Origin: Maribacter algarum (ex Zhang et al. 2020)
GTDB lineage: Bacteria; Bacteroidota; Bacteroidia; Flavobacteriales; Flavobacteriaceae
Length of the DNA stretch: 64,000 nt
NCBI RefSeq assembly: GCF_005885635.1
Contig: NZ_VATY01000003.1
Location: 62,001 to 126,000 of the forward strand
Direction: 5' to 3'
Part shown: piece by piece, positions 32,847 to 50,437 of the stretch
Position numbering within the stretch: position 1 is the stretch's first letter
Layout: the number at the start of each line of letters is the position of its first letter
Translations under genes and position numbers: made by a program
Notes under the pieces: generated by a model
Told to the model about the DNA's origin: nothing
The model's input: only the letters and a program-made list of their open reading frames with translations
The model's database searches: none

Positions 32847-33422
32847 TCACTCAAGAAATCCTTTAAACAAAAAGCTTACGATTTGTCTTTCCAATTCTAT
32901 AGGGTTTATATTAGGATTATTAGTGGCATACGAATCATAAAACCATCTTAAAGATGATAAAATAACGGACTTCGCTATGGTAATATCAAAGGCTTTGAAC
33001 ACTCCCATTTCAATTCCTTCTAAAAGCAGACTACCCAATTTTTCCTCGTAACTATCACGAAGTTTTATATACTCTGTATACTTTGGTTCTTTTAGATTAC
33101 GCCATTCATTAACCATCAAAGCAACTTCAAAAGGTTTGGTCGAGGCTATTGTAATATGCGAGGAAATAATTTGTTTTAACTTTTCGTCAGGCGAATAACT
33201 TGATGATAAAACATTATCCATAGCGGAATGGAATTCTGCCGAAGTACCAAATAAAAAACCTTCAAGTATCTCATGTTTTGACTTTATATAGTTATAGCTA
33301 TTAGACACATCGAAATTCATTCGTTCAGCAATATCCCTCATAGTAGTTGCTTTAAAACCCTTTTCGTGAATCAGTTTTAATGATTCTTGCAAAAAATCTT
33401 CCTTCTTATTGCTAACCTTCAT
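32847..33422 (-). CDS. TetR-family transcriptional regulator
   Basis: 191 residues from ATG 33422 (the frame is open to 33458). The N-terminal helix-turn-helix reads KGFKATTMRDIAERMNFDVSNSYNYIKSK, followed by an all-helical ligand domain. The gene is divergent from the homogentisate dioxygenase gene with 141 bases between the two starts, where a palindrome overlaps the hmgA promoter. It probably represses the aromatic cluster and responds to a pathway compound or CoA thioester; the ligand is inferred. Confidence 0.9.
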   Translation of the reverse strand: MKVSNKKEDFLQESLKLIHEKGFKATTMRDIAERMNFDVSNSYNYIKSKHEILEGFLFGTSAEFHSAMDNVLSSSYSPDEKLKQIISSHITIASTKPFEVALMVNEWRNLKEPKYTEYIKLRDSYEEKLGSLLLEGIEMGVFKAFDITIAKSVILSSLRWFYDSYATNNPNINPIELERQIVSFLFKGFLE

Positions 33423-33507
33423 ACTATATGGCTTTATGGGGTTTTCCCTGTTGTGCAACTTTTTTTGAGCATTACAAATAAACAGAAAAATTATGGTTTA
33501 ATAAAAT

Positions 33508-33542
33508 TTTGTTGTTTTTATATCAACAATTGTTTATGTTTG
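33508..33542 (+). promoter_or_regulatory. hmgA promoter with overlapping palindromic operator
   Basis: TATGTTTG (33535-33542) fits TAnnTTTG and lies 21 bases before the hmgA ATG; a TTTG (33508-33511) stands upstream at a slightly long spacing of 23. The palindrome AACAATTGTT (33525-33534) abuts the -7 element and the arms TTGTTG (33509-33514) and CAACAA (33524-33529) form a second inverted repeat. This is a good place for the divergent TetR protein to bind. Confidence 0.55.
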
Positions 33543-33563
33543 AATCAACAAAATGTTAGTATT

Positions 33564-34730
33564 ATGCCTTTTTATCACAAACTTGGAAATATTCCGCACA
33601 AGAGACATACTATATTCAGAAAGCCAAATGGCGATTTATACTATGAGCAATTGTTCGGAACCATAGGCTTTGATGGCATGTCATCAAATCTATACCACGA
33701 ACACAGGCCCACTCAGGTCAGGGAAATTCGAAAACAATATAGTGTCGCTCCTAAAATCACAAAGAAAAATAATATTACTTCCTATAAACTAAGAGGCTTT
33801 CAGATTGCTCCTCAAAAAGATTATTTGGAAAGCAGAAAGGTGGTCTTGACCAATAGTGATTGTAATATCATTTTAGCTGCTCCCCAAACTTCACAGAAAG
33901 AATATTTCTACAAAAATACCGATGCCGACGAGGTCATATTCATCCATAAAGGAAGCGGATTACTGAGAACCCATTTGGGCAATCTTAAATTCAGTTATGG
34001 TGATTATCTAGTTATTCCACGTGGTATGATTTACAAGATTGAATTTGATACAGAAGACAATCGACTATTCATAGTAGAGTCTTACCACCCGATATACACG
34101 CCAAAAAGATACCGCAACTGGTTTGGTCAATTATTGGAGCATTCCCCATTTTGTGAGCGTGATATAAGAAGGCCCGAGGAATTGGAGACGCATGATGAGA
34201 AAGGAGAATTTCTGATTAAGATAAAAAAGCAAGAAGACATCTTTGATGTGGTGTATGCTACCCATCCTTTTGACGTGGTGGGTTACGATGGTTTTAATTA
34301 TCCCTATGCATTTTCAATCCACGATTTTGAACCCATAACAGGGCGTATTCATCAACCACCTCCTGTACATCAGACTTTTGAAACGAGTGCTTTTGTGATT
34401 TGCAGTTTCGTACCACGTATATATGACTACCATCCAGAAAGTATTCCCGCTCCTTATAATCACAGTAATATCGATAGCGATGAAGTATTGTATTATGTAG
34501 ATGGGGATTTCATGAGTAGAAATGATGTTGAAGCCGGGCACATTTCATTGCATCCCGCCGGTATTCCGCATGGCCCACATCCGGGAGCGGTCGAACGAAG
34601 CATAGGAAAAACAAAAACAGAGGAGTTAGCCGTTATGGTCGACACCTTTAAACCTTTACAACTAACAGAAGAAGCACTAAACATTGGCGATGAATCATAT
34701 CATCTATCATGGTTAGAAGAAAATCACTAA
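33564..34730 (+). CDS. hmgA: homogentisate 1,2-dioxygenase
   Basis: 388 residues from ATG 33564. The open frame reaches 33387, but the extra part runs over the promoter and the TetR gene. The cupin fold and HGD motifs are present: MPFYHKLGNIPHKRHT at the N-terminus, YQLF-like YEQLFGTIGFDGMSS, and the iron-binding region DEVLYYVDGDF with HPAGIPHGPHPGA. It opens the homogentisate ring to maleylacetoacetate. The length is that of the short Bacteroidota form, not the 440-residue proteobacterial or animal form. First gene of the aromatic cluster. Confidence 0.93.
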   Translation: MPFYHKLGNIPHKRHTIFRKPNGDLYYEQLFGTIGFDGMSSNLYHEHRPTQVREIRKQYSVAPKITKKNNITSYKLRGFQIAPQKDYLESRKVVLTNSDCNIILAAPQTSQKEYFYKNTDADEVIFIHKGSGLLRTHLGNLKFSYGDYLVIPRGMIYKIEFDTEDNRLFIVESYHPIYTPKRYRNWFGQLLEHSPFCERDIRRPEELETHDEKGEFLIKIKKQEDIFDVVYATHPFDVVGYDGFNYPYAFSIHDFEPITGRIHQPPPVHQTFETSAFVICSFVPRIYDYHPESIPAPYNHSNIDSDEVLYYVDGDFMSRNDVEAGHISLHPAGIPHGPHPGAVERSIGKTKTEELAVMVDTFKPLQLTEEALNIGDESYHLSWLEENH

Positions 34731-34742
34731 TTCAATTCAATA

Positions 34743-35993
34743 ATGACCAATTCAGATTGCTGGATACCGATTCCCGAAAACTCCGATTTTTCAATTCACA
34801 ATATTCCCTTCGGAATTTTCAGTGATTCCAATAGTACAAAACGCATCGCGATTGCTATAGGAGACCATATTTTAGATTTGTCCATAGCGGCCAAAACCGG
34901 AATTTTCGATGAGCTCAATATAGATATTAGAATTTTCACCAACGAGTTTCTAAATCCGTTCATTGATTTAGGCAAATCCGTTACTAGCAAAGTTCGAAAA
35001 ATCATTCAAAAGGAATTGACGAACGAATCTTCGGTTTTGAAGGGTGAAGCTGCTTTTCTAACGGCACATAAGTCTAGTATTATGATGCACATGCCCGTTT
35101 TTATCCGTGATTACACGGATTTTTATTCGAGCATAGAACACGCGACCAATGTTGGCAAAATGTTCAGAGATCCTGAAAATGCTTTGCTTCCGAACTGGAA
35201 ACATATTCCTGTGGGGTATCATGGTAGAGCTTCCTCTATAGTACTTAGTGGTGTCGATGTTCGACGACCGATAGGGCAAACACTTCCGGCAGGCGAATCA
35301 CAACCGGTTTATGGTCCTTCACAACGTGTGGACTTTGAGCTGGAAATGGCCTATATCATCGGAAAGAAAACAGAACTGGGTGAAACAGTACAAACGGTAG
35401 ACGCTGAAAAATATATATTCGGAAAAGTACTTTTCAATGACTGGTCGGCCCGGGATATTCAAAAATGGGAGTATGTGCCTTTGGGGCCGTTTTTGGCAAA
35501 AAACTTTGCTTCTTCCATTTCTCCATGGGTTGTTACCATGGAAGCCTTACAACCTTTTCGTTATGAAAGTCCGAAGCAAGAACCACAGGTACTCCCCTAT
35601 CTACGATTTTCAGGTGCACGCAATTTTGACATCGCTTTGGAAGTAGCATTACAACCAGATAACGGAGTAGAAACCGTTATCAGCCGCTCAAATTTTAAAT
35701 ACATGTACTGGAATATGGCACAACAAATTGCACATCACACTGTGAATGGCTGCAATCTCAATGTCGGTGATATGATGGGTTCAGGTACGATTAGCGGAAA
35801 ATCCGAAGATTCGTATGGTTCCATGCTAGAACTTGCGTGGGCAGGTCAAAAACCCGTTAAGCTTGAAGGCGGAGAAGAACGGAAATTCATCAACGATCTA
35901 GATACCGTAATCATGCGAGGCTTCTGTGAGAAAGGAGATGTTCGAGTTGGTTTCGGTGAAGTACGGACAAAAATACTACCTGCAAAAAGATAA
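34743..35993 (+). CDS. fahA: fumarylacetoacetase
   Basis: 416 residues matching FAH: VRDYTDFYSS-type IRDYTDFYSSIEHA, YHGRASSIVLSG, EMAYIIG, DWSARDIQKWEYVPLGPF and the late GDMMGSGTISG. These include the catalytic His and the metal-binding Asp/Glu set. It hydrolyses fumarylacetoacetate to fumarate and acetoacetate, which the CoA-transferase downstream can activate. It follows hmgA by 12 bases. No maleylacetoacetate isomerase gene is in the window. Confidence 0.95.
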   Translation: MTNSDCWIPIPENSDFSIHNIPFGIFSDSNSTKRIAIAIGDHILDLSIAAKTGIFDELNIDIRIFTNEFLNPFIDLGKSVTSKVRKIIQKELTNESSVLKGEAAFLTAHKSSIMMHMPVFIRDYTDFYSSIEHATNVGKMFRDPENALLPNWKHIPVGYHGRASSIVLSGVDVRRPIGQTLPAGESQPVYGPSQRVDFELEMAYIIGKKTELGETVQTVDAEKYIFGKVLFNDWSARDIQKWEYVPLGPFLAKNFASSISPWVVTMEALQPFRYESPKQEPQVLPYLRFSGARNFDIALEVALQPDNGVETVISRSNFKYMYWNMAQQIAHHTVNGCNLNVGDMMGSGTISGKSEDSYGSMLELAWAGQKPVKLEGGEERKFINDLDTVIMRGFCEKGDVRVGFGEVRTKILPAKR

Positions 35994-35995
35994 GT

Positions 35996-36892
35996 ATGGA
36001 TACCATTAAAAGTATAGACCCAAACACCCTAGCGGTGCCCAATTTGCACAAGTTGCTGCTTTCAGCGGTTGCCCCTCGGCCAATAGCCTTGGCAAGCACT
36101 ATGGATGCCAGGGGTCGGGTGAATTTGAGTCCGTTTAGTTTTTTCAATGTCTTCAGTGCCAATCCACCGATTTTGATTTTTTCACCGGCGAGAAGGGGGC
36201 GAAACAATACCACCAAGCATACCTACGAGAATGCAAAATACAACCCTGAAGTGGTGGTCAATATCGTAAACCATGATATCGTAGAGCAAATGTCACTTTC
36301 GAGCACGGAATATGACGCGGGTGTCAATGAGTTTGTAAAAGCTGGTTTTACGCAAGTACCCAGCGAGGTTATCAAACCACCTCGGGTTGGTGAAGCACCG
36401 GTTTCCTTTGAATGTACTATTGATAATATTGTTGAATTAGGCAGTCAGGGCGGAGCAGGTAATTTGATAATATCGCGAATCGAACGCATTCATTTGCACA
36501 CCAAATATTTGAAAGATAATGGGGAATTGGATACCCAAAAGCTCGACTTGGTGGCACGTATGGGTGAGAGTTGGTATTGCCGTGCAAGTGGCGATGCGCT
36601 TTTTGAAATTCCCAAACCGATTTTCAACAAAGGTATTGGTGTTGACCAACTTCCTGCCCATGTTTTATCAAGTACTGTTTTAAATGGAAATCATCTGGGA
36701 CGATTGGGCAATATGGAACATCTTCCTTCCGAAGATGAAATCAGCAAACAGCAAAGTTCCCATGAAATTCAGGGAATACTGGCAATCGAAGACCCAAAAC
36801 AACAGCAGGATGAACTGCACAAATATGTAGTGGCATCCATAGAAAATAATGATTTGGAAAACGCATTAAGCATCCTTTTTTGCTTGAATTGA
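35996..36892 (+). CDS. flavin reductase-like FMN-binding protein
   Basis: 298 residues. The N-terminal 200 form the split-barrel flavin-reductase domain, with the motif [24 protein letters not shown] and a [12 protein letters not shown] segment. The C-terminal about 90 residues are helical. Such genes recur beside hmgA/fahA in flavobacteria. It could supply reduced flavin or act on a pathway compound; the real substrate is not known. Two bases separate it from fahA. Confidence 0.85.
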
Positions 36893-36899
36893 TAACAGT

Positions 36900-37616
36900 A
36901 TGATACAAAAGAAAGTTTCAGACGCTAGGGAGGCCCTACAAGGGGTATCAAACGGAATGACCTTAATGCTTGGAGGTTTCGGACTATCGGGTATTCCCGA
37001 AAATGCAATTTCAGAACTGATGCACCAAGGTTTCAATAACCTGACCTGCATTTCGAATAACGCTGGCGTAGATGATTTCGGATTGGGATTGTTACTCCAG
37101 AAAAAACAAATCAAAAAAATGGTCTCCTCCTATGTGGGAGAAAACGATGAGTTTGAACGACAAATGCTCAGTGGCGAGTTAGATGTAGAACTGATTCCAC
37201 AAGGTACCTTGGCAGAAAGATGCCGAGCAGCGCAAGCTGGTTTTCCGGCTATTTATACACCCGCCGGTTACGGTACGGAGGTAGCTGAAGGAAAGGAGAC
37301 CCGTGAATTCAATGGTAAAATGTATGTGTTGGAACATGCCTTTAGAGCTGATTTCTCTTTTGTAAAAGCATGGAAAGGTGATGTTGCCGGAAACTTGATT
37401 TTCAAAGGTACCGCTAGAAACTTTAATCCGAATATGTGCGGTGCGGCAAAAATTACGGTTGCCGAAGTAGAGGAATTCGTACCCGCAGGAAGTTTAGACC
37501 CGAACCAAATTCATATTCCCGGAATATTCGTGCAACGCATTTTTCAGGGCGTAAACTACGAAAAGAGAATCGAGCAACGAACGGTAAGACAAAAAGCACA
37601 ATATGGCATTGGATAA
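36900..37616 (+). CDS. 3-oxoacid CoA-transferase subunit A
   Basis: 238 residues of the SCOT/PcaI type: [15 protein letters not shown] near the N-terminus, [15 protein letters not shown], and [17 protein letters not shown]. With subunit B it transfers CoA from succinyl-CoA to a 3-oxoacid. The neighbouring fumarylacetoacetase makes acetoacetate, so acetoacetate is the likely acceptor. The last codons overlap the start of subunit B by 14 bases, showing translational coupling. Confidence 0.93.
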
Positions 37617-38259
37617 ACAAGGTATTGCAAAACGCATCGCCAAAGAGGTAAAAGACGGCTACTATGTAAATCTTGGTATTGGTATACCTACCCTAGTGGC
37701 AAACTATGTGCGGGAAGATATTGATGTGGAATTTCAAAGTGAAAACGGCGTATTGGGCATGGGGCCTTTCCCTTTTGAAGGAGAGGAAGATGCGGATATC
37801 ATCAACGCCGGAAAACAAACCATAACCACCCTGCCCGGGGCTTCTTTTTTTGACTCGGCCCTCAGCTTTTCAATGATACGCGGACAACATGTGCAGCTCA
37901 CCATTCTTGGTGCGATGGAAGTTTCAGAAAATGGTGATATCGCCAACTGGAAAATACCCGGAAAAATGGTAAAAGGAATGGGCGGTGCCATGGATTTGGT
38001 GGCTAGTGCGGACAATATTATCGTTGCGATGATGCATACCAATCGTGCCGGTGCATCTAAATTATTAAAGCAATGTTCGCTGCCCTTGACCGGAGTTGCC
38101 TGCGTAAAAAAAATAGTGACCAATCTCGCTGTACTCGAGGTGACCAGCAAAGGTTTCAACCTTTTAGAAAGAGCCCCTGGGGTAAATGTAGAAGAAATCA
38201 AAGCTGCTACGGAAGGAAATTTAATTATCACAGGAGAAATTCCTGAAATGAACATTTAA
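37603..38259 (+). CDS. 3-oxoacid CoA-transferase subunit B
   Basis: 218 residues with the [15 protein letters not shown] motif and the [10 protein letters not shown] motif whose Glu forms the enzyme-CoA thioester. It overlaps the end of subunit A. Together they yield acetoacetyl-CoA for thiolysis, joining homogentisate breakdown to central metabolism. Confidence 0.94.
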
Positions 38260-38280
38260 TACAACTAAAAGACAAATACA

Positions 38281-39231
38281 ATGGCAAAAGAATTTGCATC
38301 AAAAGCAGACCTCGGAGAAAAAGAAATCTCTTTTGTGGAACTAGGAAAAGGATGCTACGGCTACACCGCAGAGGGCGACCCCAATAGCGGTGTAATCATA
38401 GGTGATGATTACGTAATGGTCATAGAAGCGCAGGCAACGCCCCGTATGGCAAAAGATGTTATTGCCAAAATAAGAAGCGTAACCGATAAGCCCATTAAAT
38501 ATTTGGTGCTTACACACTACCATGCGGTACGTGTACTTGGGGCAAGCGAATATGGTGTGGATGAAATCATCATGTCTCAAAAGACCAATGAAATGGTTGA
38601 AGAACGTGGCGCACAAGATTGGAAAAGCGAATTCGAGCGTTTTCCAAGATTGTTCAGAGGGCATGAAAGTATTCCTGGTCTTACGCACCCTACTATGATT
38701 TTTGAGGATAAACTTACCATAGAACTCGGAAACAAAAAGGTTGAAATCATGCATGTGGGCGAGGGTCATACCAAAGGGGATTCTATCGTTTGGGTGCCGG
38801 ATGAAAAAGTGATGTTTGCCGGTGACTTGGTAGAATATGGTGCAACTCCCTATTGTGGTGACGCGCAGTTAAAAAACTGGCCTGCCACACTTCAAAAATT
38901 GAGCGATTTTAAACCAAAAGCTTTGGTTCCCGGTCGTGGGGAAGCTTTAAAAAATGAAGTAGAATGCCAAGAGGCGATTTTGATGACTTCTGAATATGTA
39001 ACCATGCTATATCAGGAAGCTTTGCTTAGCGTCACAAGGGGCGAAACATTGAAGCAGTGCTATGATGCCTTGATGAAAAATATGTCACCGCGTTTTGGGG
39101 AGTGGGTAATTTTCGAACATTGTATGCCTTTTAATGTAACTCGGGCTTACGATGAAGCGAGCGGAATTGACCATCCAAGAATTTGGACAGATGAGCGCGA
39201 TGTGGCCATGTGGAACGAACTGAATTCTTAA
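38281..39231 (+). CDS. MBL-fold protein with altered metal motif
   Basis: 316 residues of the metallo-beta-lactamase fold. The first metal motif reads THYHAVRVLGAS instead of HxHxDH: the first two His remain but the Asp and third His are replaced. The later ligands are kept (VGEGHTKGD and FAGDLVEYG). It may bind one metal or be a hydrolase of a special subfamily that travels with aromatic pathways. The substrate is unknown; a CoA thioester or ring-cleavage lactone would fit the context. It is placed between the CoA-transferase and the flavin hydroxylase genes. Confidence 0.85.
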   Translation: MAKEFASKADLGEKEISFVELGKGCYGYTAEGDPNSGVIIGDDYVMVIEAQATPRMAKDVIAKIRSVTDKPIKYLVLTHYHAVRVLGASEYGVDEIIMSQKTNEMVEERGAQDWKSEFERFPRLFRGHESIPGLTHPTMIFEDKLTIELGNKKVEIMHVGEGHTKGDSIVWVPDEKVMFAGDLVEYGATPYCGDAQLKNWPATLQKLSDFKPKALVPGRGEALKNEVECQEAILMTSEYVTMLYQEALLSVTRGETLKQCYDALMKNMSPRFGEWVIFEHCMPFNVTRAYDEASGIDHPRIWTDERDVAMWNELNS

Positions 39232-39261
39232 GAAGTAAATTAATAATAAAACCGTAGCACT

Positions 39262-41139
39262 ATGAAATGGGTTTTGCCAAAAACATATGAGAATCCTACC
39301 TATCCTTTAAAAAAAGTTGCGGATATGGAGTCTGATACCGTTACTAATTATCAGGTCGCAATTATCGGTGCCGGACCTGCTGGTCTTACTGCCGCTCTTG
39401 ATTTGGCAAATCGCGGCATCTCTAGTGTAGTTTTTAGCAAAGAAAATACGGTAAGTATTGGTAGTAGGGCGCTATGTTTTTCAAAAAAATCTTTAGAGGT
39501 TATCAATCGAATTGCACCAAAAGCTGTTGAAAAAATGTTGGCTAAAGGGGTAACCTGGAATCTAGGAAAGGTTTTTTATCAAGAAGATGAAGTATACAAG
39601 TTCAACCTGTTGCCTGAAGACGGTCATAAGATTCCCGCCTTCATCAACCTTCAGCAGTATTATTTTGAGGAGTATCTCGTAGATGAAATCGCCAACCAAC
39701 CGCTAATCGATTTAAGATGGCAAAGTGCAGCACATTTTGTAAGTCAAGATGAAGATAAGGTTACGTTAGAAATAGAAACCGAACTTGGAAATTATAACAT
39801 CGAGGCAGAATACCTTTTGGCCTGTGGAGGCGTGCGCAGTAAAACAAGGGAAACGATGAATATTCCTTTTGAGGGGGAACTCTTCGAGGAGAATTTTCTC
39901 ATTGCCGATGTGACCATGGAAAATGATTTTCCTACAGAACGTTGGTTCTGGTTCGACCCGCCATTCAACAAAGGGTATTCCGCCCTTTTGCATAAAGAGC
40001 CCGATGGGGTGTATCGTATTGATTTGCAATTAGGCATAGATGGTGTTGATAAAGATAAAGAGTTAGACCCTGAACGGATTAAAGGCAGGCTACGAAGAAT
40101 GCTGGGCGACGATTGCAAATTTGAACTGGAGTGGACGAGTATCTATAATTTCAGATGTATGCGCATCAAAAACATGGTTCACGATAGGGTGATTTTTGCA
40201 GGAGATAGCGCCCATCAAGTTTCTCCTTTCGGAGCTCGTGGCGCAAACGGAAGCATTCAAGACATCGACAATCTTGCTTGGAAATTGGCCTATGTACTAC
40301 AGGGCAAAGCACCAAAAAGTCTGCTGGATAGTTATCAGGAAGAAAGGAGTCCGGCTGCCGATGAGAATATCTACCATTCTTCTAATGCGACCGATTTTAT
40401 TTCCCCAAAATCGGAAATCAGCACACTGTTTAGAAATCAATTATTGAGCCTTGCAAAAGACCATGTTTTCGCTCAAAAAATGGTGAACAGTGGTCGCTTA
40501 TCACATGCATTCAAATATTTAAATTCCACCCTAACGTCAAGCGAAAAAGAGGAATGGAACTGTAAGCTGCAAAACGGATATCCTTTGAACGATGTGGCAC
40601 TGAAACATAATGGGGAAACTTCGTATTTGTTAGATGCTTTGAGCGATGATTTCAATCTAGTGCTTTATGGTGATGTTCTTGTTGATGTCTCGAAAATCAC
40701 GGCTCATTTTCCTGTGAATGTAATTTCTATTTCGGAAGGGAATACCAACAAAGGTTTGGTAGATAGTAATGGTTATTTCAAAAAACGGTATGATGCTACC
40801 CCAGGTAGTTGGTACCTCATCCGCCCTGACCACTATATTGCAAACCGAGGTAGAACGCTAGACTATGAAGCCATAAATATGGGTATTTGTAAAGCTACAC
40901 AGGCCACCTCGGCCATAGAAAAAAGCAATATCACGGATGCCAATCCCGCATATGCCAAAGACGATATGTACAAAGCGTTGATCGAGGCACATGAAGGTTT
41001 ATCCAAAGAAGAAAGTGACGCACTGAATGCAAATCTAGTTTTGTTGTTAATGGATACGGTCCAGGGCAAAGAAAAATGGAATACGATTTTGAACACTGCA
41101 AATAATACTACACTCTCAAATAAAGAAATAACTGTTTAA
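39262..41139 (+). CDS. FAD-dependent aromatic hydroxylase (class A monooxygenase)
   Basis: 625 residues of the phenol hydroxylase / MhpA type. The Rossmann motif AIIGAGPAGLTAALDLANRG is near residue 34, and the second FAD motif is FAGDSAHQVSPFGARGANG near 312, followed by a C-terminal thioredoxin-like domain (about 460-560) typical of this group. It would hydroxylate a phenolic substrate with NAD(P)H and O2. In this cluster the likely reaction is conversion of a hydroxyphenylacetate to homogentisate, but this is inference. The N-terminus has a 30-residue extension before the FAD fold. Confidence 0.88.
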   Translation: MKWVLPKTYENPTYPLKKVADMESDTVTNYQVAIIGAGPAGLTAALDLANRGISSVVFSKENTVSIGSRALCFSKKSLEVINRIAPKAVEKMLAKGVTWNLGKVFYQEDEVYKFNLLPEDGHKIPAFINLQQYYFEEYLVDEIANQPLIDLRWQSAAHFVSQDEDKVTLEIETELGNYNIEAEYLLACGGVRSKTRETMNIPFEGELFEENFLIADVTMENDFPTERWFWFDPPFNKGYSALLHKEPDGVYRIDLQLGIDGVDKDKELDPERIKGRLRRMLGDDCKFELEWTSIYNFRCMRIKNMVHDRVIFAGDSAHQVSPFGARGANGSIQDIDNLAWKLAYVLQGKAPKSLLDSYQEERSPAADENIYHSSNATDFISPKSEISTLFRNQLLSLAKDHVFAQKMVNSGRLSHAFKYLNSTLTSSEKEEWNCKLQNGYPLNDVALKHNGETSYLLDALSDDFNLVLYGDVLVDVSKITAHFPVNVISISEGNTNKGLVDSNGYFKKRYDATPGSWYLIRPDHYIANRGRTLDYEAINMGICKATQATSAIEKSNITDANPAYAKDDMYKALIEAHEGLSKEESDALNANLVLLLMDTVQGKEKWNTILNTANNTTLSNKEITV

Positions 41140-41148
41140 TTAGCAATC

Positions 41149-41736
41149 ATGGCACATCTAAAACCGCTTCCTAAAAATCTTCATTCAGATTTAGAGCCCC
41201 AATTTGACCACTATCAAAAAACAAGAGGATTTATTCCCAACAGTATTCTAACAATGCAAAGAAGGCCAAAAATATCAAAGGCTTTTATGGACTTGAATCA
41301 AGCCATTTTGTATGAAGGAACCGTATCCGAAGAACTGAAAATGTTGGTAAGCCTTATCGCAAGTCAAGCGGCAGGGTGCAGATATTGCCAAGCACACATG
41401 GCCAACTTGTCAAAAATATACCATGCGTCAAAAGAGAAAATAGAAGCTGTTTGGGAGTATAAGACTTCTCCCCTATTTACAGATGCCGAAAGAGCTGTCC
41501 TACAACTGGCATATCATGGTGCCATAATTCCGAATGCAGCCTCTTCAAAAGATTTCGGTGAAGTGAAAAAATACTTTAACGAAGATGAAATCGTAGAAAT
41601 CGTGGCATCGATTGCTTTGTTTGGATATCTAAACCGATGGAATGATACCATGGCGACCGATTTGGAAGAATATCCGAAAGAAGTGGCACAGGAATTAATA
41701 GCATCTAAAGGCTGGAATGCAGGCAAACACGAATAA
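41149..41736 (+). CDS. carboxymuconolactone decarboxylase/AhpD-like protein
   Basis: 195 residues, all helical, with the AhpD-type redox motif AAGCRYCQAHMANL (CxxCxxxH pattern) near residue 80. Proteins of this kind are peroxidase-like or gamma-carboxymuconolactone decarboxylase-like. It lies 9 bases after the hydroxylase gene, so protection from peroxide released by uncoupled hydroxylation is plausible. The precise activity cannot be read from the sequence. Confidence 0.85.
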   Translation: MAHLKPLPKNLHSDLEPQFDHYQKTRGFIPNSILTMQRRPKISKAFMDLNQAILYEGTVSEELKMLVSLIASQAAGCRYCQAHMANLSKIYHASKEKIEAVWEYKTSPLFTDAERAVLQLAYHGAIIPNAASSKDFGEVKKYFNEDEIVEIVASIALFGYLNRWNDTMATDLEEYPKEVAQELIASKGWNAGKHE

Positions 41737-41800
41737 TTCAAAAAATAAAATGAGAACAGATAATAAAAAAATAAATTAAGTATCTTTAAAACAGGAACTT

Positions 41801-42778
41801 ATGGTACATACAACCGATTTCGAAATTAGTACTGCAAAAGTAAATCCGAAAGAATCGCTTTCTTTTTGGAATGATTATGTGTGCGATACCTTAATCGGTT
41901 TGGACATTTCGCATAGCAGCCCAAAAACCAATTTTTATGGTTCGCTAATAGGCCATCAATTAGATGAAATGCATGTTTGTAGAATTAATTCACAATCAAG
42001 TGGGGTGCATCGTACCAAAGGCCAAATAGCAAAATCGACTGAAGGTTATTTCATGATTAATTTCCAAGTCTCGGGAGAATGCTTTTTATCGCAAGACGGT
42101 CGTCATGTACATTTAAAACCGAACGACTGGGCCTTTACGGATAGTACCCGCCCATACCAGTTGAATTTTCTAAATGATTTCGAACAACTCGTTCTTAAAA
42201 TTCCAAGAAAACTGATTACCTATGGTACATCATATGTTACTTCAAATACCGCCAAACTATTGGATGATGAAGGTCTCGGTAAAATTTTGAAAAATTTTGT
42301 TTACTCGCTAAGTGCAGAATTAAAAATCGTAGACCAATACACCAGAAAATATTTAGCCGCTAGCCTATTACAATTGCTCAACGATTATTTAAACTTAAAG
42401 TTTATCACAGAAAAGAGTAGTACTCCGTCAAAAGAGACCATGCTTTTTCAAATAAAATGTTTTGTTGAGGAGCATATTTCAAGTTCTCAGTTGACTATTC
42501 AACAAATTGCCGACACCTTCAAATGTTCAAAAAGACAATTGCATAATATTTTTTCAAAGGAAGATTGCACCATAAATTCCTATATCAAAGAATCACGTTT
42601 ACAAAAGTGTAGGGCCGATATCGAAAACCGAAATCTCTTCCAATTGACCATCGCAGAAATCGGATATAGAAACGGTTTTAACGATGTAAGCAATTTTGCA
42701 AAATCCTTCAAACACAAATTCGGTATTCCACCCGGTGAATACAGAACCTTCCACATGAAATCCGTGCAACTCATTTAA
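41801..42778 (+). CDS. AraC-family regulator with AraC-binding-like N-domain
   Basis: 325 residues. The N-terminal domain (about 10-190) is of the AraC_binding_2 type (SFWNDYVCDTLIGLDIS; FMINFQVSGECFLSQDGR). The C-terminal domain has both helix-turn-helix units, including CSKRQLHNIFSKEDC and IAEIGYRNGFNDVSNFAKSF. AraC-type activators of this kind are known beside bacterial nitrilase and aldoxime dehydratase genes, and it lies directly upstream of such genes here. It probably activates the nitrilase/dehydratase/TonB genes in response to an aldoxime, nitrile or acid. Confidence 0.9.
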   Translation: MVHTTDFEISTAKVNPKESLSFWNDYVCDTLIGLDISHSSPKTNFYGSLIGHQLDEMHVCRINSQSSGVHRTKGQIAKSTEGYFMINFQVSGECFLSQDGRHVHLKPNDWAFTDSTRPYQLNFLNDFEQLVLKIPRKLITYGTSYVTSNTAKLLDDEGLGKILKNFVYSLSAELKIVDQYTRKYLAASLLQLLNDYLNLKFITEKSSTPSKETMLFQIKCFVEEHISSSQLTIQQIADTFKCSKRQLHNIFSKEDCTINSYIKESRLQKCRADIENRNLFQLTIAEIGYRNGFNDVSNFAKSFKHKFGIPPGEYRTFHMKSVQLI

Positions 42779-42894
42779 ATTCGGTTTTTGGTCTTCGTCG
42801 GGTGTTAAAATTCGACTAAAAAAGAGCGTTTCCCTATTGACCAATACTTTGTGCACTATTCGCCAATCCGTTTCAATTAGATTGTAGTTACTTG

Positions 42895-42925
42895 ATATCC
42901 ATAACGTTAAAACCTTTATGGATAT
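42895..42925 (+). promoter_or_regulatory. perfect inverted repeat that includes the nitrilase start codon
   Basis: Ten-base arms ATATCCATAA (42895-42904) and TTATGGATAT (42916-42925) enclose 11 bases. The right arm contains the ATG at 42918. In RNA the stem would bury the start site; in DNA it could be an operator for the AraC protein. A second in-frame ATG at 42924 lies partly in the same arm. Confidence 0.55.
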
Positions 42926-43937
42926 GAAAAATACGCAATATAAAGTGGCAGCGGTACAAGCCGCCCCCATTTTTTTAGACCTTCAAGCATCCCTTAAAAA
43001 AGCAATTGGTTTAATAGAGGAAGCAGCCAAAAATGGTGCAAAAGTCGTCTCCTTTGGCGAAACTTGGCTTTCCGGTTATCCTTGGTGGATATGGCTCGAT
43101 GCTCCTGCAATGGGCATGCAATTTGTACAGCCCTATTTTGAAAGTGCCATGGAAGTGGGTGGACCTGAGCATCAGCAACTTTGCGATGCGGCCAAGCGAA
43201 ACAACATCTTTGTTTGTATGGGCTTTTCTGAACGTGCGGGAGGTTCTTTATATATCGCCCAGTTGATGATCGATGATCAAGGAGAGACTATTGCAGCACG
43301 AAGAAAATTAAAGCCGACCCATGTAGAACGTACTGTATTCGGTAATGGTGATGGTAGTGATCTCAAAGTGCATGATACCTCTATAGGCAGACTTGGGGCC
43401 TTGGCCTGCTGGGAGCATATACAGCCTTTGAGTAAATATGCCATGTATTCGCAGGACGAGCAATTACATTTTGCCGCATGGCCGGGCTTTTCTTTATATG
43501 AAGGAAAAGCACATGCCCTTGGGTGGGAAGTAAATACTGCTGCCAGCTTAATATATGCCGTTGAAGGGTCTTGTTATGTGATAGCCCCGTCTTGTATGGT
43601 ATCGCAACAAATGCACGATGTGCTCTGTGATACGGACTTAAAGAAAGACTTTTTACCGCTAGGCGGAGGGTACGCCAGAATTTACGGCCCTGATGGTTCT
43701 GAACTTGCCGAGCCACTACCGCACGATCAAGAAGGTATTATTTATGCGGATATCGACCTGGGTGCTATTGCTGTGGCAAAGGCTGCGGCCGATCCTGCCG
43801 GACACTACTCCAGACCGGATGTAACACAACTACTCTTCAATCCAAAACCGCAGCGCCCAGTGGTAATGCGCGACGAATACAATGCTGGCAAAGAACCTGT
43901 TGCAGAGCAAGCACCTGCCGAAGAAACAGCCGATTAA
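42918..43937 (+). CDS. nitrilase
   Basis: 339 residues of the carbon-nitrogen hydrolase superfamily, nitrilase branch. The catalytic triad is visible: Glu48 in SFGETWLSGYPWWIW, Lys130 in RRKLKPTHVERTVFG, and Cys164 in ALACWEHIQPL. It hydrolyses a nitrile to the carboxylic acid and ammonia. The aldoxime dehydratase gene follows after 2 bases, so the nitrile is probably made in the same cell. The homogentisate genes nearby suggest an arylacetonitrile. The last 20 residues are Glu/Ala/Pro-rich and probably disordered. Confidence 0.94.
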   Translation: MDMKNTQYKVAAVQAAPIFLDLQASLKKAIGLIEEAAKNGAKVVSFGETWLSGYPWWIWLDAPAMGMQFVQPYFESAMEVGGPEHQQLCDAAKRNNIFVCMGFSERAGGSLYIAQLMIDDQGETIAARRKLKPTHVERTVFGNGDGSDLKVHDTSIGRLGALACWEHIQPLSKYAMYSQDEQLHFAAWPGFSLYEGKAHALGWEVNTAASLIYAVEGSCYVIAPSCMVSQQMHDVLCDTDLKKDFLPLGGGYARIYGPDGSELAEPLPHDQEGIIYADIDLGAIAVAKAAADPAGHYSRPDVTQLLFNPKPQRPVVMRDEYNAGKEPVAEQAPAEETAD

Positions 43938-43939
43938 TT

Positions 43940-44956
43940 ATGGAAAAATATAAAAAGAATATGCCCCCCGATTGGGAACCACCGGTTCCCGCTTGGAGTG
44001 CTCAAATAGAAAAAGACTGTACCGAAGTAGTCATTGAATACATCGGTGTTCAGACCCTTACGGATAATAGTCAAAAACCAACTGCTTTTCACAACTGGTA
44101 TGCCGGTATGATGAAAACAGAACACGCGCCGATTCACACTGAAAGAGGCCGAATGCTGGATAGCGAAAACTACGTCAACGACTTCTATATTTCCTATTGG
44201 AATTCGAAAGAGGATTATGAAAACTACCGTTCCTCGAGCGAATTTATGGACTGGTGGGGTACTGAAGAGCGCACGCGAGAAACATCGGGCTATTGGCTAG
44301 AACCCATGATAGTTCCGACGGAACGTTTTGAGACTCTTTTTTCCAGTGAAGACAAAGCAGGTGCAGCCACTATTTTCAATGATTTCAAAGGGCCTATCAA
44401 AGAACATAATTATTTTGGGGGAATGCGGGATAGGTTGGAAATCTCGGAGGTAAACCTTTTGGAAGGTAATGGCAGCGAACTAACAAAACGGTCCAAGATT
44501 GAATCTTTAGGAAAAAGGGTTCACTTAAAAACCCCTGAGAATCTCGCTATTATCCGTTCCGCACAAAATTTAGGGCATTGTAAACAAGAGGAACTGGACT
44601 ACTACTATAAAGATGTTCATCCGCATCTCTTGAAAGGAATGGATTTCATAGCAACCAATCCCAAAGAAACAGGTTGTGCCTGTTCTCGGTTTTCAGATGA
44701 ATTGACACTAGATGGAAATTCCACACAGAAAACATTCGGATTCGCATATTTCCTGACCCTTGAGCATTTAGAAAAATGGTCTAAGACCCATCCAACGCAT
44801 TTGGCCATTTTTCACAGTTTTTTAGAGATGGTTCAATCACTTGAAGGACAGGTAGCTATTAAACTATGGCACGAAGTATCCGTGCTCCCCAAAGGGCAAA
44901 CCTTTGAATATATCAACTGTCATCCAAAAACAGGATTACTACCCTGGTTCAATTAA
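43940..44956 (+). CDS. oxd: aldoxime dehydratase (haem-containing)
   Basis: 338 residues matching the phenylacetaldoxime dehydratase family. Diagnostic segments are GYWLEPMIVPTERFETL, FGGMRDRLEIS, IRSAQNLGHC, SHPTHLAIFHSFLEM-like THPTHLAIFHSF, KLWHEVSVL and YINCHPKTGLLPWF. The conserved His residues of the last two motifs are probably the haem ligand and the distal catalytic His known in this family. It dehydrates an aldoxime to a nitrile with ferrous haem. It is co-transcribed with the nitrilase. This family is uncommon in Bacteroidota as far as I know. Confidence 0.92.
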   Translation: MEKYKKNMPPDWEPPVPAWSAQIEKDCTEVVIEYIGVQTLTDNSQKPTAFHNWYAGMMKTEHAPIHTERGRMLDSENYVNDFYISYWNSKEDYENYRSSSEFMDWWGTEERTRETSGYWLEPMIVPTERFETLFSSEDKAGAATIFNDFKGPIKEHNYFGGMRDRLEISEVNLLEGNGSELTKRSKIESLGKRVHLKTPENLAIIRSAQNLGHCKQEELDYYYKDVHPHLLKGMDFIATNPKETGCACSRFSDELTLDGNSTQKTFGFAYFLTLEHLEKWSKTHPTHLAIFHSFLEMVQSLEGQVAIKLWHEVSVLPKGQTFEYINCHPKTGLLPWFN

Positions 44957-44983
44957 AATAACAACTCAACTTAAAACTAAAAA

Positions 44984-47593
44984 ATGAAAAATTCAATTCA
45001 AAAACAAGATTACTTTAAGGTATTGCTGCTCTCAGCAGTTCTGCTACTTACAAGCTTTTCCGTGTTTGCACAAGAAGGCATTGTTAGCGGTACAGTAAAC
45101 GATGCGAGCGGAGCAACCCTACCGGGCGTTAATGTCGTAGTGAAAAATACGTCAACAGGAGCCATTACCGACTTTGATGGAAACTATAGTATTACCATTC
45201 CAGAAGGCGGAGAAACTTTGGTTTTCTCCTATGTGGGTTATAAAACACAGGAAATTGCCATTAACGGACAAAGTACCATAAATGCAGTTTTGGCAGAAGG
45301 AAGCTTTGGATTGGAAGAAGTGGTCGTAACCTCAAGAAAACAATCAGAGAATGTTCAGGAAGTTCCGATTTCGGTATCCGCTTTTTCAGCGAAAACCTTG
45401 GAGGCTAGGGGTATTGAAAATGTTTCGGGCATTGCAGATTTTATTCCCAATGTAGAAATTGATGTTACCGCTCCTTTTAGTGGTAGCCAATCAGTATTAT
45501 CGCCATATATTAGAGGAATTGGACAAATTGACTTTGCGATAACCTACGAACCAGCAGTTGGGCTCTATGTTGACGGAGTTTATTTTGGTCGTACGGTAGG
45601 ATCAATAATCGATTTATTAGATGTAGAAAGAGTTGAGGCATTAAAAGGACCACAGGGAACCTTGTTCGGAAGAAACACTATAGCTGGTGCTTTAAATATC
45701 ACAACAAAAGACCCATCGCGAACTTTCTCAGCAACAGGCCAACTAACGACTGGTAACTTCAATAGATTAGACACAAAAGTGTCCGTTGACATACCCTTGG
45801 TAGAAGATAAATTACTCTCAAGTTTTTCAGTTTCTTCAATCAATAGAGACGGTCATATGAAGCGAGTACCTTATACAGGTCCTGCCAATGCAGATTTAGC
45901 GAGCCCAAGAGGCGGTGTGTTTTCAGATGTAAACCTCGACGGGGAACAAGGCAATCAAAATAACGATACATGGCGTGCTAAATTAAAATGGTTGGCCTCA
46001 GAAAAATTCCAGGCCACTTTTAGCGGGGATTATGAACGCGTTCGTGAAAACCAGAATGCCTCTAAGATTTTGGCCATGTTCAATGATGTGGGTGGTGCAC
46101 CGACTATAGTAGGTGCCTATAACGCCTGTGCGGCCGGCCTTTTACCTCCGGAATTATGTGATAATATCGCCAATGCACCTGGGTTGACCCTTACTGGTAG
46201 CACACCATATGACGAACGCTTTATAACTGACGACCCCTTTACCAACTATGGTACGGCTGATGCCGGAACTAAAATTGATACTTGGGGTGCTTCTATGACG
46301 TTGGATTGGGAATTAAGTGATAAGTTAGCCTTTAAATCGATTTCAGGCTATCGCAACCTACAATCTAGATTCGCAGAAGACCAAGACTTTTCACCCTTGG
46401 ATTTTGGTACAGCAGGTTTCATTATGCCTCAAAAACAGTTTACCCAAGAATTTCAACTGGTTGGTAATAGCGATAAATTAAAGTGGATTGGTGGCCTGTA
46501 TTACTTTACCGAAAAGGGCTCTGTAACCGACCAAGTTATTCTTGGTAATGGTCTTGTGCAGATATACGGACAAAATTTTGTCAAAAACAAAAGTTATGCT
46601 GCCTTTGCGCAAGCTACCTATAACCTTTCCGAAAAATGGAGTGTAACTGCTGGAGCACGACTTACGAATGAACGTAAAGAACTCGATGGCAGACAACGTG
46701 ATTTAAATAGCTTTGCCCTAAAGACGGGGGTTGTAAGTCCAGCTGATTTTCCCACAACGGATCTTACGCTTTACTATCCACCTGGCGTCAATGAACAGAC
46801 ATTTAGTGAACCTACTTTTAGATTAGGAACGGAATATAAATTCTCTGAAAATGTATTCGCCTATGGTTTCTTTGCCCAAGGTTTTAAATCTGGGGGTTGG
46901 ACAACTAGGGTAACTAGCCCAGTTTTAGAAGCGCCCACCTTCGAACCCGAAAAAGCAAATACGTATGAGCTAGGTCTTAAAACCGATTTGGCGGATAATA
47001 CATTCCGTTTTAACATTGCAGCTTTTTACACCGATTACCAAAATCTGCAAATTACCGTACAACGTGGCATTACCCCTTTTGTGGAAAATGCAGCACAAGC
47101 CACCATTAAAGGTTTGGAAGTAGATGCGCAGTGGAGAGCTTCAGAAAATCTAACCTTTTCAGGAAATCTAGGTTTTATTGATGCCTCGTACAACGAAATC
47201 ACGGATCCCAATGCTGTAATACAAGAAGATTTCAGTTTTGTAAATACACCAGACTTCTCTAGTTCACTCGCCATGGACTGGATAATTCCGTTTGGTGAGA
47301 ACAAGGGTAGGCTCATATTCCACACAGATTTATCCAGTAAAAGTGAGATATACAACGATGTAGAGAACACCCCTTTGTTATTACAAGACGGAATTACTTT
47401 GCTGAACGCCTCTTTATCTTTAGAAAGTGCAAGTCGCGCATGGAAAATAAGTATGGGAGGCACCAATATTACCGACCAGACCTATTTGGTTGGTGGTTAT
47501 AATAACCCAGGAGTGGGAATCATTTATGGCACCTATGCAAGACCTGCAGAGTTCAATTTGGGAATCACGTATAAATTATTTAGCAACAATTAA
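44984..47593 (+). CDS. TonB-dependent receptor without SusD partner
   Basis: 869 residues: signal peptide (VLLLTSFSVFA), carboxypeptidase-like domain (about 30-115; GIVSGTVNDASGATLPGVNV), plug with YIRGIGQIDFAI, VGLYVDGVYFGR and KGPQGTLFGRNTIAGALN, and a long barrel ending LGITYKLFSNN. The plug and barrel look like the receptors that proteobacteria such as sphingomonads use for small organic molecules, not the SusC type. It is 27 bases after the aldoxime dehydratase and is the last gene of the cluster, so it probably imports the aromatic substrate. Confidence 0.92.
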   Translation: MKNSIQKQDYFKVLLLSAVLLLTSFSVFAQEGIVSGTVNDASGATLPGVNVVVKNTSTGAITDFDGNYSITIPEGGETLVFSYVGYKTQEIAINGQSTINAVLAEGSFGLEEVVVTSRKQSENVQEVPISVSAFSAKTLEARGIENVSGIADFIPNVEIDVTAPFSGSQSVLSPYIRGIGQIDFAITYEPAVGLYVDGVYFGRTVGSIIDLLDVERVEALKGPQGTLFGRNTIAGALNITTKDPSRTFSATGQLTTGNFNRLDTKVSVDIPLVEDKLLSSFSVSSINRDGHMKRVPYTGPANADLASPRGGVFSDVNLDGEQGNQNNDTWRAKLKWLASEKFQATFSGDYERVRENQNASKILAMFNDVGGAPTIVGAYNACAAGLLPPELCDNIANAPGLTLTGSTPYDERFITDDPFTNYGTADAGTKIDTWGASMTLDWELSDKLAFKSISGYRNLQSRFAEDQDFSPLDFGTAGFIMPQKQFTQEFQLVGNSDKLKWIGGLYYFTEKGSVTDQVILGNGLVQIYGQNFVKNKSYAAFAQATYNLSEKWSVTAGARLTNERKELDGRQRDLNSFALKTGVVSPADFPTTDLTLYYPPGVNEQTFSEPTFRLGTEYKFSENVFAYGFFAQGFKSGGWTTRVTSPVLEAPTFEPEKANTYELGLKTDLADNTFRFNIAAFYTDYQNLQITVQRGITPFVENAAQATIKGLEVDAQWRASENLTFSGNLGFIDASYNEITDPNAVIQEDFSFVNTPDFSSSLAMDWIIPFGENKGRLIFHTDLSSKSEIYNDVENTPLLLQDGITLLNASLSLESASRAWKISMGGTNITDQTYLVGGYNNPGVGIIYGTYARPAEFNLGITYKLFSNN

Positions 47594-47625: not shown

Positions 47626-47666
47626 ATAAGCCTTCCTTGTGAAACATAGGGAAGGCTTATCCTTTT
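47626..47666 (+). terminator. terminator at the end of the aromatic cluster
   Basis: Eleven-base arms ATAAGCCTTCC (47626-47636) and GGAAGGCTTAT (47650-47660) followed by CCTTTT. It ends the run of plus-strand genes that begins at hmgA. Confidence 0.85.
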
Positions 47667-49167: not shown

Positions 49168-49542
49168 ATGGGAAGTAAATCAAGACTAGAAATCATGAAA
49201 GCGAATCGAATCCTCAAAAACGGAACGGCACAAAAAAAATCAAAAAAGGAAAACGCTCAGGATATAATAAGTAAATCGATTCAAAGGGTTTGCGCGGAAA
49301 AAATCAAAATGATAGAAAAAATTTATGATCGGAAATTTGGATTTACCATAGGATACACTATGGGAAGTAAATCAAAACTGGAAATCATGAAATCATATCA
49401 AATCCTCAAAAATGAATCGGAACAAAAGTTAAAAAACAACAAAAAGGAAAACGCTCTAGGTGTAATAAGTAAATCGCTATTAAATGCTGTTCGAAAAGTT
49501 CGGGCAGGTCTATTAATTCATTCCAAATATTTTCAATTATGA
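49168..49542 (+). CDS. two-repeat basic protein translationally coupled to ssb
   Basis: 124 residues from the first ATG of the frame (the frame is open from a TTG at 48985, but no ATG occurs earlier). It consists of two copies of a unit with a 64-residue period: MGSKSRLEIMKANRILKN and MGSKSKLEIMKSYQILKN, each followed by a lysine-rich segment and KKENAxxxISKS. The stop overlaps the ssb ATG as ATGA. I do not recognise the family. Strong basic charge and coupling to single-stranded DNA-binding protein suggest a nucleic-acid role in the mobile module. Confidence 0.6.
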   Translation: MGSKSRLEIMKANRILKNGTAQKKSKKENAQDIISKSIQRVCAEKIKMIEKIYDRKFGFTIGYTMGSKSKLEIMKSYQILKNESEQKLKNNKKENALGVISKSLLNAVRKVRAGLLIHSKYFQL

Positions 49543-49892
49543 GTAATCTTAGAAACAAAGTCCAATTGATTGGCAACGTGGGTAATAATCCCGAAATGAC
49601 CGTTTTGGAAAGTGGTAAAAAAGTAATCCGCTTTTCTTTGGCGACCAATGAAAACTACAAGAACGCCAAAGGCGAGAAAGTACAATGTACGGACTGGCAC
49701 AATATGGTGGCTTGGGGAAAGACTGCCGAGATCGTAGAAAAGTATGCCGTCAAAGGCAAGCAAATCGCCATCGAAGGAAAATTGACCTCACGAAGCTATG
49801 AGACCAAAGAAGGTGAAAAACGCTACATCACGGAAGTGATCGTTAGCGAGGTTTTACTCTTGGGCACCAAGAACGAAAACAAGGCAGCCTAA
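49539..49892 (+). CDS. ssb: single-stranded DNA-binding protein
   Basis: 117 residues covering one OB fold: NKVQLIGNVGNNPEMTVLESGKK, FSLATNENYKN, WHNMVAWGKTAEIVEKY and YVTEVIV-like YITEVIVSEVLLL. The acidic C-terminal tip with which SSB normally recruits partner proteins is absent; the chain ends NENKAA. This short form is common on plasmids and integrative elements. The start overlaps the upstream stop by the sequence ATGA. Confidence 0.93.
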   Translation: MSNLRNKVQLIGNVGNNPEMTVLESGKKVIRFSLATNENYKNAKGEKVQCTDWHNMVAWGKTAEIVEKYAVKGKQIAIEGKLTSRSYETKEGEKRYITEVIVSEVLLLGTKNENKAA

Positions 49893-49916
49893 TGCTTTGA
49901 GATTAAAAAAGAAAGA

Positions 49917-49948
49917 GGGCGTTCCAGCTAAAGTATCGCCCCCTTTTT
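49917..49948 (+). terminator. terminator after ssb
   Basis: GGGCG (49917-49921) pairs with CGCCC (49937-49941) around a 15-base loop, followed by a C/T run ending in five Ts. Confidence 0.65.
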
Positions 49949-49976
49949 CATTACCACTAACATAAATTAATACGCA

Positions 49977-50426
49977 ATGAAATTACAAGTTAATGAAATA
50001 AAAGTGAGCTACAAAGAACGGATAACTTCCCCCTTTTGGCATAAGATAAAATCTTCAAAAGATGCTGCCGATATGCTCTTTGAACATTGGGACAAACAGA
50101 CCATACAAGTACATGAATCCTTTAAGGTCGTCCTATTGAACAACAACAATAAAGTAAAAGGTATCTACCAACTTTCAAAAGGTGGAATAACAGGAACTTT
50201 GGTTGATTTAAGAATCTTATTTGCGGTAGTCTTAAAGACCCTTTCAGTGGCAATAATCTTGACCCACAACCATCCGAGTGGAACACTAAAAGCAAGTGCG
50301 GCGGACAAAGAAATCACCTATAAAATCAAAAAGGCCGCCGAGCTTCTTGATATTCGATTGTTAGATCATATTCTGATCGTACCCAATGGCGACTACTACA
50401 GTTTTGCGGATAACGGACTGATGTAA
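49977..50426 (+). CDS. RadC-like JAB-domain protein
   Basis: 149 residues with the RadC/MPN+ domain: the JAMM metal site reads LTHNHPSGTLKASAADKEIT with two His and the Asp. The chromosomal RadC N-terminal helix-hairpin region is missing, as in the short versions carried by mobile elements. The biochemical role of RadC is unsettled; the metal site suggests hydrolase activity. It lies between ssb and a small gene of the same module. Confidence 0.9.
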   Translation: MKLQVNEIKVSYKERITSPFWHKIKSSKDAADMLFEHWDKQTIQVHESFKVVLLNNNNKVKGIYQLSKGGITGTLVDLRILFAVVLKTLSVAIILTHNHPSGTLKASAADKEITYKIKKAAELLDIRLLDHILIVPNGDYYSFADNGLM

Positions 50427-50437
50427 AATTGAACGCT

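Follow-up and report, generated by a model that had tools for sequence, protein, structure and literature searches.

Gene content and organisation of the cluster

We analysed a 64,000-nucleotide stretch of the Maribacter algarum genome (G000; 5.11 Mb, 20 contigs), referred to here as the window and corresponding to C14:62001-126000 in our contig numbering. It carries a cluster of 12 plus-strand genes (33564-47593), with a divergent TetR gene on the minus strand, in which homogentisate genes adjoin the genes of an aldoxime-nitrile pathway. The joined cluster is real and conserved. It is undescribed as far as our searches reach, and each of its halves is already known by itself from other bacteria.

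The divergent gene (32847-33458, minus strand) encodes a TetR-family regulator with TetR_N and TetR_C_24 domains. On the plus strand lie the genes for a divergent homogentisate 1,2-dioxygenase-like protein (HGD, 388 residues; 33564-34730), fumarylacetoacetase (FAH, 416 residues; 34743-35993), a flavin-reductase-like split-barrel protein (FlavRed, PF01613, 298 residues; 35996-36892), and 3-oxoacid CoA-transferase subunits A (ScoA, TIGR02429; 36900-37616) and B (ScoB, TIGR02428; 37603-38259). They are followed by genes for an MBL-fold protein assigned by profile match and conserved neighbourhood (38281-39231), a fused MhaA-MhaB protein that is a predicted 3-hydroxyphenylacetate (3-HPA) 6-hydroxylase (39262-41139), and an AhpD/CMD-family protein (PF02627; 41149-41736) that falls below the TIGR01926 cut-off (70.8 against 81.8 bits). 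The right-hand part comprises an AraC-family regulator with an AraC_binding_2 domain (41801-42778), a nitrilase (339 residues; 42918-43937), a haem aldoxime dehydratase (Oxd, 338 residues; 43940-44956) and a TonB-dependent receptor with a carboxypeptidase-regulatory-like N-domain (44984-47593); the AraC and TonB assignments come from profile matches. All genes named by an earlier note on this DNA were found where it placed them and on the same strand, while the FlavRed, MBL-fold, AhpD/CMD-like and divergent TetR genes extend its list. The tight spacing it described applies to most of the cluster, where intergenic gaps range from -14 to 30 bp, but not to the 64 bp between AhpD and AraC or the 139 bp between AraC and the nitrilase gene. 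Just 3′ of the TonB gene, a hairpin of 16 pairs with a T-rich tail (47626-47660) is a candidate terminator; among the 17 hairpin-type sites of the region (13.5 expected) it has the longest stem. The G+C content runs without a break, at 0.406-0.414 in the cluster and 0.407 on its left side.

In the homogentisate half, the HGD-like protein passed the HgmA_N profile (52.4 bits; cut-off 20.2), and its H300, E307 and H336 align with the iron ligands of human HGD, which we take to be H335, E341 and H371. The possibility that this gene encodes no HGD at all was set aside, given the retained ligands and the adjoining FAH and ScoAB genes. FAH exceeded the TIGR01266 cut-off (569.6 against 375.3 bits) and has a solved relative in PDB 5ti1. 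A second HGD (contig C1, 72% identical, beside apparent histidine-use genes) and a second FAH (contig C12, 60% identical) are encoded elsewhere in the genome, which leaves the cluster copies free for a dedicated role. The HPPD gene is also on C1, outside the cluster. No PaaA/PaaC family match was found in the genome, and thus phenylacetate has no other visible outlet through an aerobic phenylacetyl-CoA route.

The hydroxylase, which carries PF01494, scored 694.2 bits against NF006002 (cut-off 416), far above the next model (212.1 bits), and its C-terminal residues 555-600 matched DUF2783 (PF10932; 47.7 bits, cut-off 25). Of the FAD/NAD(P)H fingerprints of class A hydroxylases, which we take to be GxGxxG, DG and GD, the first and last are present and the DG motif reads GG (Gly189). 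The sections of PMC3053370 at hand describe MhaAB of P. putida U as a 3-HPA 6-hydroxylase made up of a 566-residue flavoprotein, MhaA, and a 60-residue coupling protein, MhaB. In B. xenovorans LB400, according to the same source, mhaAB homologues adjoin hmg genes, with a role then still needing proof. MhaA of P. putida U would belong to the class A PRK08132/NF006002 flavoproteins, and MhaB, from its size and position, would be a DUF2783 protein. The fusion of DUF2783 to an NF006002 flavoprotein agrees in size and order with MhaA plus MhaB, and the window hydroxylase reads, by family and domain order, as both in one chain, likewise its counterparts in the two further clusters described below. 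If this reading is correct, the expected substrate is 3-HPA and not phenylacetate; the class A flavin hydroxylase of the earlier note would thereby keep its family and gain a narrower identity. A structure prediction of the fused protein from a two-row alignment had a mean pLDDT of 30.8 and was not used.

We opened 10 of the 25 plasmid MhaA loci listed among 840 matching records, with flanks of 8-10 kb. All 10 contain the genes for the MBL protein, MhaA and a DUF2783 protein in that order (in locus L023, MBL, FAH and MhaA are each broken over two frames), and within the flanks hmgA occurs in nine, maiA in six and an Oxd gene in none. Among the genes searched, the MBL gene is the next before mhaA in 13/13 loci. 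The MBL protein reads HYHAVRVLGAS in each of the 13 copies (window, L002, L023, L024, L049-L056 and G072), the HYHAVR replacing HxHxDH, presumably the usual motif of the second metal site, so that its Asp and His are missing. It is also the most conserved protein among the flavobacterial clusters (93-97%).

The Oxd passed PF13816 (281.7 bits; cut-off 25) and remained below the aliphatic OxdA equivalog NF050090 (262 against 600 bits); its solved relatives include PDB 7f2y, 3a15 and 3w08. The haem and catalytic residues of OxdRE, which we assume to be H299, H320, S219 and R178, correspond to H287, H311, S207 and R165, the last hand-counted on the alignment. Identity to the plasmid-borne Oxds listed is 31-37%. 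The nitrilase passed CN_hydrolase (PF00795; 173.8 bits), lies under the cut-off of the Nit6803 equivalog TIGR04048 (242.5 against 502.6 bits), and is 58% identical to an Acinetobacter plasmid nitrilase; its closest solved relative is NitA (PDB 6zby, 441.8 bits). The catalytic triad, presumably Glu-Lys-Cys, is represented by E48, the lysines of RRKLKPT (K130, K132) and C164. Judged from these alignments, HGD, Oxd and nitrilase all retain their catalytic residues.

Conservation of the joined cluster and of its parts

The same gene set was found in two further genomes, another Maribacter (L002/G773) and G072, and its presence together in both indicates more than chance adjacency. The gene-order search suggested by the earlier note thus found the homogentisate and aldoxime parts linked in other genomes. 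Identities to the window in Maribacter and G072, respectively, are 88 and 85% for HGD, 73 and 77% for FAH, 85 and 86% for ScoA, 83 and 88% for ScoB, 93 and 97% for the MBL protein, 69 and 73% for MhaAB, 62 and 65% for AraC, 77 and 80% for the nitrilase, 70 and 71% for Oxd, 76 and 80% for the TonB receptor, and 77 and 79% for AhpD. Outside the cluster, HPPD of M. algarum is 71% identical to that of either other genome, and UvrC 74% to that of G072. AhpD is a member of all three clusters and is located 3′ of the TonB gene in Maribacter and G072, both of which also have a gene for a membrane protein of 355-362 residues before AraC that is missing from the window (no Pfam match for the Maribacter protein). 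The FlavRed gene is missing from the Maribacter cluster, and its reading frame is split in G072. In G072, a DUF7482 gene (L027:16378-17739, minus strand) lies between AraC and the nitrilase gene. With AhpD moved, the membrane gene variable and a DUF7482 gene in one cluster, the linkage has outlived rearrangement. The genome of M. algarum was picked for having the cluster and lends no independent support; the Maribacter cluster was found by a search reaching close relatives only.

Among 397 genomes of the family, PF13816 is present in two (M. algarum and G072), both with DUF2783, and PF10932 in three (these two and G300). In G300, a lone DUF2783 reading frame of 77 residues (L029, G300:C3:336000-355000) has no MhaA match in the 19-kb stretch, and it adjoins genes that by eye resemble a hydroxyphenylacetate meta-cleavage set. 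In a phylum sample of 395 genomes, PF10932 matched M. algarum alone and PF13816 matched M. algarum and G473, the G473 match being partial (26.9 bits, profile positions 49-120); none of the searched proteins matched at its 3.2-kb locus (L033). The full-length Bacteroidota Oxds found in our searches number three, all inside the joined cluster. For contrast, HGD, FAH, MhaA and MhaB occurred in none of 16 non-Bacteroidota Oxd loci (8-10 kb per side, less at contig ends), made up of 10/11 from the relatives search and 6/34 plasmid records.

The left half also occurs by itself. Two congeneric genomes (G050 and G270) carry TetR//HGD-FAH-FlavRed-ScoA-ScoB in the same order as the cluster, with no MBL, MhaAB, nitrilase or Oxd genes in the fetched stretches and no PF13816 or PF10932 match. 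Their sole HGDs share 89 and 85% identity with the window copy, which is thus closer to them than to the second HGD of its own genome. In Maribacter G773, a second operon on C6 reads TetR//HGD-FAH-FlavRed-HPPD. The TetR gene adjoins HGD in G050, G270, G072 and the Maribacter cluster as well, and the FlavRed gene is part of the homogentisate operons of G050, G270 and G773 C6. Trees were built for HGD, FAH, FlavRed, ScoA, ScoB, TetR and MBL. The window copy groups with the congeners in the ScoB tree (95/94) and with G072 in the TetR tree (94/93, under star level); it lies outside the two congeners, which group together, in the FAH tree (98/99), and the HGD tree leaves the relation of cluster and congener copies open.

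Candidate regulatory sites precede both halves. The palindrome TTGTTG-N7-ATCAACAA (33509-33529) is an exact match and a putative TetR operator or promoter; the pattern also occurs in G270 and is absent from G050, G072 and G773. With up to three mismatches it has 23 matches in the window against 14.5 expected, and the exact match alone was used. The adjacent inverted repeat TTGTTTATGTTTGAATCAACAA (33530-33551), which contains a TAnnTTTG -7-like string and may be regulatory, is similar in G050, G072 and G773 (the G270 stretch is incomplete there). No -33 element fits this string. The Bacteroidota promoter consensus, which we take to be TTTG-N17-21-TAnnTTTG, has one match in the window against 3.14 expected and none in the cluster, and sigma-70-type sites between 32600 and 48200 are at chance level (34 against 36.8 expected). 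In front of the nitrilase gene, the candidate AraC operator CAATANTTNGTGCNCTATTNNNCAAT (42842-42867) is conserved in all three clusters, despite the different preceding gene in G072. Its consensus was derived from the same three sequences and is exact there by construction; its support comes from conservation amid poorly aligned spacers and from its single occurrence per locus. Of the 20 fixed positions, 4 are mismatched at the window's second-best site, and at least 5 at any site in 20 kb of G050, where the module is missing. Two transcription units are likely: one under TetR, running from HGD to MhaAB or as far as AhpD, and one under AraC, with the nitrilase, Oxd and TonB receptor genes.

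Predicted pathway and alternative explanations

The gene content, protein families, linkage and conserved sites given above are observations; all substrates, the operon boundaries and the flow direction are inferred from them. Our preferred reading, with a probability of about 0.6, is that the cluster serves the catabolism of a ring-hydroxylated arylacetaldoxime, most likely 3-hydroxyphenylacetaldoxime, via the nitrile and 3-HPA. The TonB receptor would admit the substrate, either free or as a conjugate, to the periplasm, Oxd would dehydrate the aldoxime to the nitrile, and the nitrilase would release hydroxyphenylacetate and ammonia. The fused MhaA-MhaB would convert 3-HPA to homogentisate by hydroxylation at C-6, after which HGD would open the ring, the resulting maleylacetoacetate would be isomerised to fumarylacetoacetate by some enzyme distinct from the glutathione-dependent MaiA, FAH would cleave this to fumarate and acetoacetate, and ScoAB would form acetoacetyl-CoA. 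TetR would control the HGD-to-MhaAB block and AraC the nitrilase, Oxd and TonB genes.

Several points weigh against this reading. Gene adjacency is no proof of a single flow, and the two regulators and the 139-bp gap fit two pathways equally well. No natural occurrence of 3-hydroxyphenylacetaldoxime is known to us, the substrate range of the nitrilase and Oxd is not readable from sequence, and the window cluster includes no inner-membrane transporter. The identity of MhaA is predicted from family, fusion partner and neighbourhood, and the DG-motif Asp is present in 12/12 other MhaA rows against Gly189 in the window, whose copy may be weak, differently active or affected by a sequence error, making its activity uncertain. 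The HGD-like protein scored below the cut-offs of HgmA_C (19.4 against 21 bits) and of the equivalog TIGR01015 (72.7 against 510.75 bits). Because the latter was missed, we class it as a divergent HGD-like enzyme with predicted HGD activity. The left half is a standing flavobacterial homogentisate operon, and since the congeners' only HGD is a close relative of the cluster copy, that copy may serve tyrosine also. The trees do not separate an in-place addition of the aldoxime half from transfer of the whole cluster. Four Oxds of a Chitinophagaceae bacterium, mentioned in the accessible part of PMC8955678, lie outside our count of three.

The isomerisation step is a further such point. TIGR01262 (MaiA, glutathione-dependent maleylacetoacetate isomerase) had no match in the cluster or in the M. 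algarum genome, leaving this step without an assigned enzyme, and the description of the cluster as complete-looking in the earlier note goes too far. The genome carries HGD, FAH and HPPD without MaiA. As no MaiA exceeded the cut-off in the 397 family genomes (two weak sub-cut-off matches), its absence seems general in the family. The FlavRed protein might supply the missing isomerase activity or have some accessory role. The MBL protein was set aside as a replacement, as MBL and MaiA co-occur in 6/10 plasmid loci.

The same flow might run from another substrate, an explanation that overlaps our own and that we consider rather unlikely. Examples would be 4-hydroxyphenylacetaldoxime, if hydroxylated at position 1 with migration of the side chain, and a tyrosine-derived halogenated oxime that loses its halogen oxidatively. 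Plant cyanogenic glucoside synthesis does make p-hydroxyphenylacetaldoxime from tyrosine (PMC3617294, in excerpt), 4-hydroxyphenylacetate enters homogentisate by carbon-1 hydroxylation in two species (cited in the available part of PMC3053370), and among the listed hydroxylase relatives of solved structure are phenol 2-monooxygenase and 2,4-dichlorophenol 6-monooxygenase. The MhaA-MhaB type and the neighbourhood, however, indicate 3-HPA, for which MhaAB of P. putida U is described as highly specific in the portion of PMC3053370 consulted.

That two independent pathways merely share a neighbourhood is, in our view, unlikely. A TetR-controlled operon for 3-HPA or tyrosine via homogentisate would then stand beside an AraC-controlled unit for detoxifying aldoximes and nitriles or gaining nitrogen from them, with phenyl- or indole-acetaldoxime as substrate and the acid excreted. 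Such independence would account for the AraC-nitrilase-Oxd-transporter units standing alone on Acinetobacter and Pantoea plasmids, for the solitary HGD operons of G050 and G270 and for the separate conserved sites of the TetR and AraC parts. It sits poorly with a linkage kept in 3/3 clusters despite gene shuffling, and with the absence of homogentisate genes from all 16 non-Bacteroidota Oxd loci examined. An ordinary tyrosine-catabolic operon with unrelated genes adjoining by chance is very improbable: HGD-FAH-FlavRed does adjoin HPPD in Maribacter G773 C6, and the congeners' only HGD is close to the cluster copy, but the cluster lacks HPPD, whose gene in M. algarum is on C1, and the occurrence of the whole set in three genomes speaks against coincidence.

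From the account in the earlier note of an aldoxime-to-homogentisate route, what persists is the presence of the aldoxime-nitrile module, the homogentisate module and the TonB receptor together in three genomes. Its single route is an interpretation, to be set beside the solitary homogentisate half of G050 and G270 and two regulators that apparently have separate sites. Our catabolic reading for 3-hydroxyphenylacetaldoxime or a similar substrate would join two known modules in one predicted route with a testable substrate guess, and the hydroxylase would be the single-chain form of a two-protein system. It also raises the question of how flavobacteria isomerise maleylacetoacetate without MaiA. 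In a broader version, possible but tentative, alga-associated flavobacteria would have a dedicated and transferable pathway that imports an arylacetaldoxime, either meta-hydroxylated or tyrosine-derived and halogenated, and mineralises it for carbon and nitrogen through a natural MhaA-MhaB fusion enzyme and a homogentisate route free of MaiA. If true, this would imply that aldoximes or nitriles of this kind have a marine source not yet recognised.

Neighbouring genes and relation to known systems

On the 3′ side of the cluster, genes for SSB, RadC, a DUF5712/relaxase-like protein and a TraG/VirD4-like coupling protein (49539-54226) suggest a conjugative or mobilisable element; they make transfer possible and do not demonstrate it. 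Elsewhere in the window, an apparent hexuronate-use cluster (144-11005) contains UxuA, UxaC and KduI-family genes by Pfam and, by eye, a TRAP transporter, an aldolase and a kinase. A DDAH-family protein (Pfam; 15404-16369, minus strand) is encoded beside an apparent class V aminotransferase recognised by eye (16372-17868, minus strand).

In the literature searched, from which subscription journals were mostly missing, no paper treated phenylacetaldoxime and homogentisate together, and none described a Bacteroidota system joining both parts, which agrees with the earlier note. Aldoxime dehydratase and homogentisate co-occur only as separate statements on a Pseudomonas genome, in a source seen in part. 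For Maribacter and aldoxime, the only relevant paper found was PMC8955678, which in its accessible text counts one Oxd in Maribacter, states that Bacteroidetes contain few and does not use the word homogentisate. The consulted text of PMC11568032 mentions neither Maribacter nor hydroxyphenylacetaldoxime; it reports that expressed hypothetical Oxds of Bacteroides and Parabacteroides were inactive, with one Bacteroides protein listed in a table as active with another vector.

The homogentisate side of the cluster resembles the mha-hmg clusters of P. putida U (mhaAB with hmgABC) and B. xenovorans LB400 (mhaAB-hmgA1B1C1), as given in the available part of PMC3053370, and the hmgA/fahA-MBL-FAD-DUF2783 loci of proteobacterial plasmids, with which it shares HGD, FAH, MBL, MhaA and MhaB; one plasmid mha locus also shares CoA-transferase A/B. 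Unlike these, the window has MhaA and MhaB as one protein, a divergent HGD type and an attached aldoxime module, and it lacks the MaiA present in 6/10 plasmid loci. Its TonB receptor contrasts with the ABC or TRAP transporters of several plasmids, and its TetR regulator with the MarR of 6/7 annotated plasmid loci. In the flavobacterial homogentisate operon TetR//HGD-FAH-FlavRed(-ScoAB or -HPPD) of G050, G270 and Maribacter C6, the left half has its nearest match, to which the window adds the hydroxylase, MBL and aldoxime genes. The right half shares adjoining AraC, nitrilase and Oxd genes with the aldoxime-nitrile clusters of Bacillus sp. OxB-1 and Bradyrhizobium (PMC8955678, in part) and with the AraC-nitrilase-Oxd-transporter units of Acinetobacter and Pantoea plasmids, and differs from them in its TonB receptor and its link to a ring-cleavage route.

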